Part shown: positions 5,488 to 30,835 of the stretch, piece by piece
How positions within the stretch are numbered: position 1 is the first letter of the stretch
Layout: each line of letters opens with the position of its first letter
NCBI GenBank assembly: GCA_002685955.1
Contig: NYYU01000041.1
Coordinates: 1-50,967 of the forward strand
Source of the DNA: Parcubacteria group bacterium
Lineage (GTDB): Bacteria; Patescibacteriota; Minisyncoccia; Portnoybacterales; UBA2143
DNA: 50,967 nucleotides
Direction of reading: 5' to 3'
The notes under the pieces: generated by a model
What the model was told of the DNA's origin: nothing
The model's input: only the letters and a program-made list of their open reading frames with translations
Databases searched by the model: none
Made by a program: the position numbers and the translations under genes

Positions 5488-7541
5488 ATCTAATTATTGT
5501 TGAATCACCTACTAAATCAAAAACAATCTCAAAATTCCTAGACAAAGAATACAAAGTCTTATCCTCTTATGGCCATGTTCGAGATCTTCCTAAAAATCAA
5601 CTAGGAGTTGATCTTGATGATAATTTTAAACCTAAATACGTCATCCCGACTAAAGCCAGAAAAGCAGTTAAAGAATTAAAGGATGCGGCAAAAAAAGCTA
5701 AGTTGATCATTTTAGGCACTGACTCAGATAGAGAGGGAGAAGCAATTGCTTGGCATATTGCCCAAATTTTAAAATTAGATAAAGAAAATTCTCAACGAAT
5801 TGTTTTCCATGAAATAACAAAAAGCGCAATTGAACAAGCTTTAAAAAATCCGCGTCAGCTTGATACAAACTTGATTAATGCTCAACAAGCTCGACGCATT
5901 TTAGACAGACTGGTTGGTTACAAATTATCACCATTTCTATGGAAAAAAGTAGTCAAAGGATTATCAGCTGGTCGGGTTCAATCAGTAACGGTCAAATTAA
6001 TTGTTGACCGAGAAAGAGAAATAGAAAAATTTAAACCAGAAGAATACTGGACAATCGTCGCTTCGCTCTTCAAGAAACAAGAGTTTGATGCTAAATTGAT
6101 AAAAATAGATAACAAAAGGTTATCTAAGTTGGACATTAAAACCAAACAAGAAGCAGATAAGATCTTAACAGATTTAAAACAGGCCCAATACAAAATTTCT
6201 GATATCAAAAAAAAAGAAGTTCAAAAATATCCCAGTCCGCCCTTCACCACCAGCACCCTGCAACAAGATGCAGCCCGCAAGCTTTACTTTTCAGCTAAAC
6301 AAACCATGGTTATTGCCCAGCAGCTTTATGAAGCCGGCCTTATCACTTACCACCGGACTGATTCCTTAAATTTATCTGATCAGGCCCTAATCGCTTTGCA
6401 TCAATTTATTAAAAGCAAATTCGGCTCCGAATATAATTTGACTCAGCCAAGAATCTACAAAACAAAAAGCAAAGGGGCTCAAGAAGCTCATGAGACAATT
6501 CGACCCACTCAAATTGATGCTCAACCGGATCAGATTAAGCAACGTTTAGATCAAAGACAACGCAAATTGTATGATTTAATCTGGCGCCGGGCGATTGCCT
6601 GCCAAATGGCCCCAGCCCGCTTTGATTCCACTAGTCTTGAAATTGAAGCGAATACTTGTATTTTTAAAGCAACTGGTCAGATTCTAAAATTTGACGGCTT
6701 TTTAAAAATTTACCCAACCAAATTTCAAGAAGTCGAACTGCCTTTACTAACTAAAGGAGAAGTATTAAAATTAATCAAACTATTTTCCGAACAACATTTC
6801 ACCAAACCGCCCGCCCGCTACACTGAAGCCTCTTTAGTCAAAACTTTAGAAGAATATGGCATTGGCCGACCCTCAACTTACGCGCCGATTATCAGCACCA
6901 TTCAAGAACGCGGCTATACAGAAAAAAATGACCAAAAAAGATTTATACCCACTGAAATCGGCTTTATTGTTACTGATTTGCTTAAAGAAAACTTCCCTAA
7001 AATTGTTGATATTAAATTCACTGCTTACTTAGAAAAAGACTTAGATAAAATCGCCCAGGGCCGACAGAACTGGCTAGCGATCCTTAAAGAGTTTTATCAA
7101 CCCTTTCAGGAAAACCTTGATAAGAAATATGAGGAAGTAAAAAAGAAAAATCTTGACCAGCCAACTGACAAAAAATGTCCCAAATGCGGCAGCCCCATGG
7201 TCATTAAATTGGGACGCTTTGGTAAATTCTATGCTTGCTCTGCCTTCCCTGACTGTAGACACACTGAACCAATTATTAACTCCACTGGGACAACTTGCCC
7301 AGAATGCAATCAAGGACAAATAGCCAAAAGGAGAACAAAAAAGGGCAAAATATTCTACTCTTGCTCTCGATATCCTAAATGCAAATATGCCCTATGGGAC
7401 GAACCAATTAACGAAAAATGTCCTGAGTGTAATTCTATTCTAGTTAAAAAGGGCAACCAAATTAAATGCAGCAACAAAGAATGTAATTACAAACAATCAC
7501 ATGGAAATAAAAGAGTTTCTGGAAAAATTAAAAAAGATTAA
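5484..7541 (+). CDS. topA: DNA topoisomerase I
   Basis: 685 residues, type IA topoisomerase that relaxes negative supercoils. The Toprim domain starts IIVESPTKSKTISKFL and has the acidic cluster LGTDSDREGEAIAWH. The nucleophilic tyrosine lies in AGLITYHRTDSLNLSD. The C-terminus carries zinc-ribbon modules (CPKCGSPMVIKLGRFGKF with CSAFPDC, CPECNQGQ with CSRYPKC, and CPECNSILVKKG with CSNKEC). The start overlaps dprA by 4 nt, and the 3' end overlaps the rel gene by 41 nt in a different frame. The domain content is complete for a compact bacterial enzyme. Confidence 0.96.
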   Translation: MNLIIVESPTKSKTISKFLDKEYKVLSSYGHVRDLPKNQLGVDLDDNFKPKYVIPTKARKAVKELKDAAKKAKLIILGTDSDREGEAIAWHIAQILKLDKENSQRIVFHEITKSAIEQALKNPRQLDTNLINAQQARRILDRLVGYKLSPFLWKKVVKGLSAGRVQSVTVKLIVDREREIEKFKPEEYWTIVASLFKKQEFDAKLIKIDNKRLSKLDIKTKQEADKILTDLKQAQYKISDIKKKEVQKYPSPPFTTSTLQQDAARKLYFSAKQTMVIAQQLYEAGLITYHRTDSLNLSDQALIALHQFIKSKFGSEYNLTQPRIYKTKSKGAQEAHETIRPTQIDAQPDQIKQRLDQRQRKLYDLIWRRAIACQMAPARFDSTSLEIEANTCIFKATGQILKFDGFLKIYPTKFQEVELPLLTKGEVLKLIKLFSEQHFTKPPARYTEASLVKTLEEYGIGRPSTYAPIISTIQERGYTEKNDQKRFIPTEIGFIVTDLLKENFPKIVDIKFTAYLEKDLDKIAQGRQNWLAILKEFYQPFQENLDKKYEEVKKKNLDQPTDKKCPKCGSPMVIKLGRFGKFYACSAFPDCRHTEPIINSTGTTCPECNQGQIAKRRTKKGKIFYSCSRYPKCKYALWDEPINEKCPECNSILVKKGNQIKCSNKECNYKQSHGNKRVSGKIKKD

Positions 7542-29281: not shown

Positions 29282-30835
29282 TTACATTTTCTCTGGGGCA
29301 TTAATGCCCATTAACCCTAAAGTGTTTTTTAAAATAATTTGAGTAGTTTTAACTAAATTAATTCTAGCTTGAGCTATTTTTTTATCTTTATCCAAAACTC
29401 GACACTGTTCATAAAACTTATGAAAACTATGAGCCAGTTCTAAAGAATAATAGGGCAAACGCTGAACTTGATAATCCCTAGCGATATCCTCTATCATTTC
29501 TGGAAATTTAATTAACTGACGGATAAGATTTAATTCGGTTGGATGATTTAATGAATCTAAATCTTTGTTGTTACCTTTCAACTCTGCCTTTCGTAGAATA
29601 CTACAAATTCGGGCATGAGCATATTGGATATAATAGACTGGATTTTTAGCTGATTGCTCTTGGGCTAAAGCTAAATCAAAATTCAAATGAGTATCAGCTG
29701 ATTTTTGTAAAAAGAAAAATCTGACTGCGTCCGGACCAACCTTATCAAGTAATTCATCCATTTCTACATAAAGCCCGGCTCTTTTAGACATTTTTTGTTT
29801 TTCACCTTTGTCTAAAATAGTTACAAACTGTAAAAGAATAACTTTTAATTTATCCTTATGGCCAATTGCCTCTACGCCAGCCATTAAGCCTGGGACATCT
29901 CCATGATGATCAGCTCCCCAAATATTAATCACTTGATCAAATTTTTTATCCTCAAACTTATACCGATGCAAAGCAATATCACCGGCTAAGTATGTATTAT
30001 TCCCATCCTTCTTAATCATGACCCTATCTCGTTCATCTCCAAACTGTTTTGACTTAAACCATTCAGCCTCATCTTTCTCATAGATTAAACCTTTTTTCTT
30101 TAAAAAACTCAAGGCTTGATCAACTTTTTTTAATTGGTGCAAATCTGATTCAAAAATCCATTCGTCATATTTAACCCCTAGTTTATCAGTAGTTTTCTGG
30201 ATTAAGTCTTTAATAATATGTTTAGCGGCTAATTGGCCCGCTTTAAATGGGTCTTTTTCTTTGATTTTTTTATTTAATTGATCAATATATTCACCCTGAT
30301 ATTTTGCTTGATCATCTTTTAAAACAGAATGGCCCAGAGTCAAAATCTGCATACCAGCATCATTAACATAAAAAGCTTTTTCACATTTAAAACCTGCTTT
30401 ATTCAAAATATTAGCTAAAACATCACCAAGGGGTCCGCCTCGGGCGTTACCCACGGTTAAAGGACCAGTCGGATTAGCTGAAATAAATTCAACTTGGACT
30501 TTTTTATCCTGACCAACATCTAAACTCCCATAATCATCTCGTTTGCTTAAAATCTCAGAAACTTCTTCAGTTAAAGCATTTTTAGATAAAAAGAAGTTTA
30601 TAAAGCCCTGCCCGCTACGCTTCGCGTAGCGATGCGGGCGGGCGGGACCGACAACTTCTATCTTTTCAAATAGTTGATTATCTTTTAATTTACTGATAAT
30701 CTTTTGAGGATCAATCTTAGTTTGCATGGCCACATTAGTTGAAAAATCGCCAAATTCAAGATTAGCCGGATGCTCTAAATGAACATCTTTTTTAACAATG
30801 TCTTTAATTAATTTTTCTATTTCCCCACGAAGCAT
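29282..30835 (-). CDS. argS: Arginyl-tRNA synthetase
   Basis: 517 residues, class I. The HIGH-type region is SANPTGPLTVGNARGG (the variant with Thr/Asn replacing the His residues, which also occurs in some bacterial ArgRS). Other blocks are GDIALHRYKFEDKKFDQVIN, GADHHGD, KQKMSKRAGLYVEMDELL and FDLALAQEQSAKNPVYYIQYA. The C-terminal DALR domain is complete. The N-terminal domain carries a foreign 12-residue loop, ARPHRYAKRSGQ, between VGP and GFINFFL. In relatives these are contiguous (xxGPGFINF), so this is an in-frame palindromic insertion (separate entry). Confidence 0.95.
   Translation of the reverse strand: MLRGEIEKLIKDIVKKDVHLEHPANLEFGDFSTNVAMQTKIDPQKIISKLKDNQLFEKIEVVGPARPHRYAKRSGQGFINFFLSKNALTEEVSEILSKRDDYGSLDVGQDKKVQVEFISANPTGPLTVGNARGGPLGDVLANILNKAGFKCEKAFYVNDAGMQILTLGHSVLKDDQAKYQGEYIDQLNKKIKEKDPFKAGQLAAKHIIKDLIQKTTDKLGVKYDEWIFESDLHQLKKVDQALSFLKKKGLIYEKDEAEWFKSKQFGDERDRVMIKKDGNNTYLAGDIALHRYKFEDKKFDQVINIWGADHHGDVPGLMAGVEAIGHKDKLKVILLQFVTILDKGEKQKMSKRAGLYVEMDELLDKVGPDAVRFFFLQKSADTHLNFDLALAQEQSAKNPVYYIQYAHARICSILRKAELKGNNKDLDSLNHPTELNLIRQLIKFPEMIEDIARDYQVQRLPYYSLELAHSFHKFYEQCRVLDKDKKIAQARINLVKTTQIILKNTLGLMGINAPEKM
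30608..30643. repeat. 36-nt GC-rich palindromic insertion in argS
   Basis: The core CGCTACGC-TTC-GCGTAGCG (30613-30631) is a perfect 8-bp hairpin, and an outer CCCGC/GCGGG can pair too. Exactly 12 codons are added between GGP and GFINF of ArgRS. The rest of argS is AT-rich. Confidence 0.8.

Follow-up and report, generated by a model that had tools for sequence, protein, structure and literature searches.

The window analyzed in this study is the whole 50,967-nucleotide stretch of contig NYYU01000041.1, which belongs to the Parcubacteria group bacterium assembly GCA_002685955.1. It carries the gene for arginyl-tRNA synthetase (ArgRS), whose open reading frame (ORF) contains the Pfam domains Arg_tRNA_synt_N, tRNA-synt_1d, and DALR_1 and has PDB ArgRS structures as its best fold matches. 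Inside this gene lies a 36-nt palindromic element, which a covariance model scan found to be the sole member of its family in the window (Table 1). The core of the element, CGCTACGCTTCGCGTAGCG, occurred in 0 of 100 shuffles of the window, so that a chance occurrence is not expected. A GC-rich match to GCCCGCCCGC at position 6809 was inside a topoisomerase-I-like ORF and proved unrelated to the element.

Table 1. Positions of the ArgRS gene and its insert in the window, and of related copies in the own genome (G000) and at other loci.
Feature	Location	Strand	Basis or remark
ArgRS (argS), host gene	29282..30835	-	517 aa ORF, intact on both sides of insert
36-nt palindromic element, copy CCTGCCCGCTACGCTTCGCGTAGCGATGCGGGCGGG	30607..30642	+	covariance model 61.3 bits, E 7e-14, 36/36 positions
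ArgRS codons 65-76, ARPHRYAKRSGQ, encoded by insert	30608..30643	-	translation, alignment of relatives, empty site
Inner hairpin CGCTACGC-TTC-GCGTAGCG, 8 bp	30613..30631	+	single-strand fold z-score -3.5
Composite palindromes L167-L170	G000 C6:47808, C47:19915, C47:46386, C32:53		terminal inverted repeats and same hairpin
UvrA	L065 and, at a different site, L081		insert splits or abuts domain (Pfam)
UvrB	L064		insert splits or abuts Pfam domain
LeuRS	L079		insert at editing domain (Pfam)
Fpg	L072		insert splits or abuts Pfam domain
TsaD	L074		insert splits or abuts Pfam domain
PNPase	L073		insert between two RNase PH domains
Class V aminotransferase (NifS-like)	L069		insert splits or abuts Pfam domain
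M48 peptidase	L103		insert splits or abuts Pfam domain
TP-methylase (TP_methylase)	L107		insert splits or abuts Pfam domain
Second ArgRS	L049		insert in anticodon-binding domain
FtsZ	L121		two tandem copies near C-terminus
IleRS-like protein	L057		three copies
UvrD-like frame (named by eye)	G012		element ends contig

The initial annotation had placed a 36-nt palindromic insertion in ArgRS at this site, and the sequences of relatives bear it out to the base. The alignment of related ArgRS that it had proposed, made with Patescibacteria sequences, showed a clean 12-residue gap in all 28 relatives covering the site, each of which reads GP-GFINF or an equivalent without interruption, compared to the 12 codons that separate GP and GFINF in the window. 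The same 12 residues in distant ArgRS, which would have spoken against an insertion, were absent. The nearest relative (L007 in genome G003, 76% identity) has the empty site GGT CCC GGC TTT, identical to the window sequence minus 36 nt. The two placements of the insert in Table 1, by fit to the family consensus and by codons, are equivalent because one C is common to the junction. Beyond this single ambiguous C, no target duplication was detected at the ArgRS insertion site.

The AlphaFold model of the window ArgRS (19 family members) had a mean pLDDT of 91, and residues 66-75 were the only run below 50, forming a turn between strands 56-62 and 78-83. The stretch of E. coli ArgRS that matches the insert site in the alignment to E. 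coli chains is A78-G79-P80-G81-F82-I83-N84, in which A78, F82, and N84 contact A20 in the D-loop of tRNA-Arg (PMC8975779). Since the site aligns between A78 and F82/N84, the insert, as modeled, splits the AGP/GFIN motif and opens the A20-pocket loop of ArgRS. Neutrality is not obvious for an insert that adjoins a functional tRNA-binding motif. The insert could have been recruited, with the basic peptide RPHRYAKR by the A20 pocket helping ArgRS to grip or select tRNA-Arg and being kept by protein selection. The placement between the equivalents of these E. coli A20 contacts would suit such a role, as would the five basic residues (R, H, R, K, R) and the use of a basic reading frame that is rare among the copies (2 of 29). 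Recruitment is nevertheless considered unlikely, as no relative has the insert, the predicted loop is disordered, and the DNA hairpin is intact save for one lengthening change and shows no drift towards a protein-optimised form. This change is at element position 10, where T replaces the A of the family and makes the inner hairpin longer.

Conservation of the hairpin was assessed across element variants. As the set defined by the exact core pattern (A2) understates variation, a wider set (A3) was taken instead. The hairpin, examined in 67 distinct variants, comprised the pairs 6-35, 7-34, 8-33, 9-32, 12-30, 13-29, 14-28, 16-26, 17-25, 18-24, and 19-23 in element numbering. Changes on both sides occurred in five pairs and 20 cells, compared to a shuffled mean of 3.7, and none of 500 shuffles reached 20. 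Pair 7-34 accounted for ten compensatory cells by itself, and control pairings slid along the element stayed far below the real hairpin in double-change cells. A symmetric 36-nt stem, with pairs summing to 37, showed no covariation, which appeared when the outer pairs were offset by four. In a second, overlapping hairpin (11-14 with 18-21), compensation from C-G to T-A was found in four variants. Because compensatory changes occur in both hairpins, the variants indicate that the folding of the element, as DNA or RNA, is preserved and not just its sequence.

Such a fold could also act in the message. Located about 190 nt into the argS mRNA, the G+C-rich stem of 36 nt might slow or regulate translation or decay, with the peptide being incidental. 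This agrees with the strong predicted RNA fold (z -3.5) and with REP-type elements elsewhere that are thought to act as RNA (PMC3733652). Against it stand the copies themselves, which occupy many genes as well as intergenic regions, at positions that bear no relation to one another and in either orientation. No relative has a hairpin at the same place and no Rfam family matches, the Rfam scan having returned only a sub-threshold chance match nearby. An mRNA role is thus rated as slightly less likely still than recruitment of the peptide.

The element belongs to a dispersed family of imperfect palindromes with the consensus CCYGCCCGCAACGCTTCGCGTAGCGAKGCGGGCGGG. At up to 3 mismatches, 11 of the 379 genomes in a phylum-wide sample had a copy, and further genomes of the same order and class also carry it. 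A scan of GTDB contigs, which required 24 fixed bases and covered 257 billion bases, returned 70 stretches, nearly all from Patescibacteria and Verrucomicrobiota, compared to a chance expectation of about 0.002 under an assumed uniform composition. Among Patescibacteria, the record titles named Moranbacteria, Magasanikbacteria, Nealsonbacteria, Giovannonibacteria, Collierbacteria, Falkowbacteria, and others. Elsewhere, they named Verrucomicrobia with Lentisphaerae and Kiritimatiellia, and one record was from Acidobacteria. Among the matches listed at up to 3 mismatches, the genomes checked contained between 1 and 18 copies, reaching 18 in G441 and 11 in G443, and with 8 in G428 and 5 in G432.

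The surroundings of individual copies were also inspected. In three genomes (L084, L111, and L118), one common and nearly identical longer repeat surrounds the element (CAAAAAGGAAGG, element, GGGTTGGGGGGAAGGAA) and represents a putative larger shared mobile unit. A blastn search of phage and plasmid records gave no element match. One contig of a viral collection (IMGVR_UViG_3300042691_036497, L053) holds two copies about 350 bases apart in opposite orientation and represents a possible vehicle between hosts. When 91 copies were excised in a search for interrupted tRNA genes, one convincing case was found, and tRNA genes are therefore not a general target. In this case (L100, Verrucomicrobia AV17), ARAGORN found a tRNA only after the element was excised, so that the copy seems to interrupt a tRNA gene. 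Pieces resembling tRNA also adjoin elements in L048, L101, L080, L095, L097, and L105.

The own assembly comprises 919 kb and is 84% complete, and its relatives and repeat family would place it among the Patescibacteria (Candidate Phyla Radiation, CPR). The genome search for the core proposed in the initial annotation had a divided outcome. With up to 3 mismatches allowed, exact and near-exact pattern searches of this assembly found no second copy. A covariance model based on the element variants, however, recovered five diverged relatives, which overturned the view of an element unique in its genome and brings the total to six with the ArgRS copy. Four of the five are 38-nt versions inside conserved composite palindromes of about 120 nt, which start with AGAAAACAAATTTTTTAAATCG and end with an imperfect inverted repeat of it. 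As the ends of this unit inversely repeat each other, the hairpin forms one arm of a MITE-like palindrome. Some of the composites also hold a second hairpin (CCTGCCTGCCGGTAGGCAGG). No long ORF runs across three of the four, and the remaining one is located just upstream of a methionine aminopeptidase-like gene. The fifth relative is a lone 36-nt copy in an intergenic region.

Approximately 40 of 88 distinct catalogued copies (about 45%) were found in open frames of at least 180 aa with sequence on both sides, and Pfam matches were obtained for 29 of 30 scanned ORFs bearing the element. These included DNA repair proteins and tRNA synthetases, among other core genes (Table 1). A comparison of the two UvrA copies revealed another clean 12-aa insertion in L081 relative to L065. 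The element is open in five of its six frames, with the sixth carrying TAG. The frames of small, flexible residues, PARNASRSDAGG and PARIATRSVAGG, were used by 20 of 29 copies (P=0.0015 against equal use, 2/5), a bias that fits the survival of harmless peptides. An assembly or binning error, in which the repeat joined two unrelated contigs, would be conceivable for metagenome-derived genomes, where repeats break or join contigs as in the G012 contig ending in the element, but is very improbable here, since the same ArgRS frame runs through both flanks and is 76% identical to the nearest relative across the insert site, the reconstructed empty site equals that of this relative to the base, and in-frame inserts of this kind occur in other genes of independent genomes.

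Coding hairpins of other sequence were also observed. The ArgRS of L012, from genome G002 of the same family, has a different, near-perfect 44-nt in-frame coding hairpin (GATTTGGGAGTCCTTCTCCCAATTAGGAGAAGGACTCCCAAATC, C12:50377-50410) about 15 codons upstream of the present site. No further copy of it was found in the G002 genome with up to 3 mismatches allowed. A third repeat type, GTCATCCTGAGC...GAATGAC, which reads ..SSGFxLRMT.., occurs in the anticodon-domain linker of ArgRS in L007 (G003) and L010 (G006). In L007, it forms a long hairpin within the coding sequence that is unrelated to the element, and L010 has a related sequence. The UvrA of L081 (KQPVARLSQAIPK) contains an extra in-frame 16-bp coding hairpin (TTGCTTGACTTAGTC...) besides its family copy. 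The hairpins in G002, L007, and L081 indicate that coding palindromes of several unrelated sequences recur in these bacteria.

Taken together, the element is most probably a small, non-autonomous mobile palindromic hairpin of about 32-36 nt, through which ArgRS gained a tolerated 12-residue loop. That an essential enzyme took up a repeat as a peptide loop, as first proposed from the window alone, is supported by the homologues, the dispersed family, the other in-frame copies, and the predicted disordered loop. A foldable hairpin would spread among Patescibacteria and Verrucomicrobiota, and one copy would have inserted into argS at GGTCCC^GGCTTT without a detectable duplication of the target. 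With a length of 36 nt and five of six frames open, the insert would have extended ArgRS by 12 residues instead of breaking it, and the survival of the element in genes would likewise rest on a peptide that can be tolerated. The 12 residues would be translated and make up a flexible turn in the A20-pocket loop, linking two N-terminal-domain strands, where they are presumably tolerated and near-neutral for ArgRS and may touch the tRNA.

Movement would depend on an enzyme, provided in trans, that processes the hairpin as single-stranded DNA. Presence/absence polymorphism of the element at population level was not seen, so that we infer movement from the distribution of copies. The mobility of REP elements is attributed to RAYT/Y1 transposases, which would act on hairpins of single-stranded DNA (PMC8266576). 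For the present element, an association with Y1/RAYT was unsupported. Y1_Tnp was absent from the own genome and from the copy-rich genomes G443, G428, and G432, and its occurrence was not clearly higher in element-bearing genomes of Patescibacterial size (20 of 30) than in relatives without the element (28 of 52). Among the matches listed, no transposase gene was adjacent to an element, and the closest distance on one contig was about 3.4 kb. A mobiliser of another kind is possible, as is one that works in trans or has since been lost. It is proposed more tentatively, as a possibility falling short of even likelihood, that the hairpin family crosses distant phyla (Patescibacteria and Verrucomicrobiota) independently of RAYT via a single strand, and that its in-frame settling in core genes is frequent enough to be a regular source of new peptide loops in these small genomes, in this case within a tRNA identity pocket. 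The identical 12-residue insertions in UvrA, UvrB, FtsZ, and tRNA synthetases constitute a natural series in which the tolerance of core proteins for new loops can be examined. The findings also prompt one to ask how distant phyla came to have a short hairpin in common almost letter for letter.

The element resembles repetitive extragenic palindromic elements (REPs), which are imperfect palindromes of 20-40 nt, by its length of 36 nt and its 12-pair hairpin with compensatory changes. Like REPs, it is dispersed, with some copies in-frame within ORFs and in the same kinds of target gene: GTAG and CGTC REPs occur wholly within ORFs, and their targets include UvrA, UvrB, UvrD, and tRNA synthetases (PMC3733652). 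However, the element lacks a GTAG/CGTC tag, as it ends in CCYG...CGGG with no conserved flanking tetranucleotide in 91 copies. It reaches 1-18 copies per genome among the matches listed at up to 3 mismatches, with 6 in the own genome by covariance model, whereas REPs often exceed 100. No REPtron was found and no RAYT was adjacent to the element among the matches listed, about 45% of catalogued copies are in long ORFs, and the element is near-identical across distant phyla. As tag, copy number, and REPtron features all differ, the element is not filed as a REP.

Four copies in the own genome resemble MITE-like composite palindromes, as they lie in units that span about 120 nt and have terminal inverted repeats. 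The ArgRS copy differs as a bare 36-nt hairpin without terminal repeats, and no parent transposon was found. Coding palindromes are also held by mitochondrial genes of Nematomorpha, where inverted repeats likewise lie within coding sequence. These differ in being perfect, up to 284 bp long, and from animal mitochondria, with no mobile sequence family described (PMC6649704).

The element also resembles the Rickettsia palindromic elements (RPEs), in-frame palindromes in essential genes that are read as extra peptide and are treated as the same phenomenon as ORF-internal REPs (PMC3733652). The present element was likewise found in-frame in conserved genes and absent from homologues, directly for ArgRS and UvrA and via Pfam context for the others. 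RPEs are confined to Rickettsiales in the literature found, and they are likened here by description, not by sequence. RPE-1, the longer type, is larger than the present element, at about 100-150 nt. No description of the present family was found in a search for palindromic or REP elements in CPR/Patescibacteria, which covered mainly open-access literature. Other bacteria also have in-frame palindromic inserts, whereas the present repeat family and its frequency in core genes appear undescribed. Protein-coding palindromes, chiefly reported from Rickettsia and a few REP-rich genomes, are hereby extended to the small-genome, mostly uncultured Patescibacteria.
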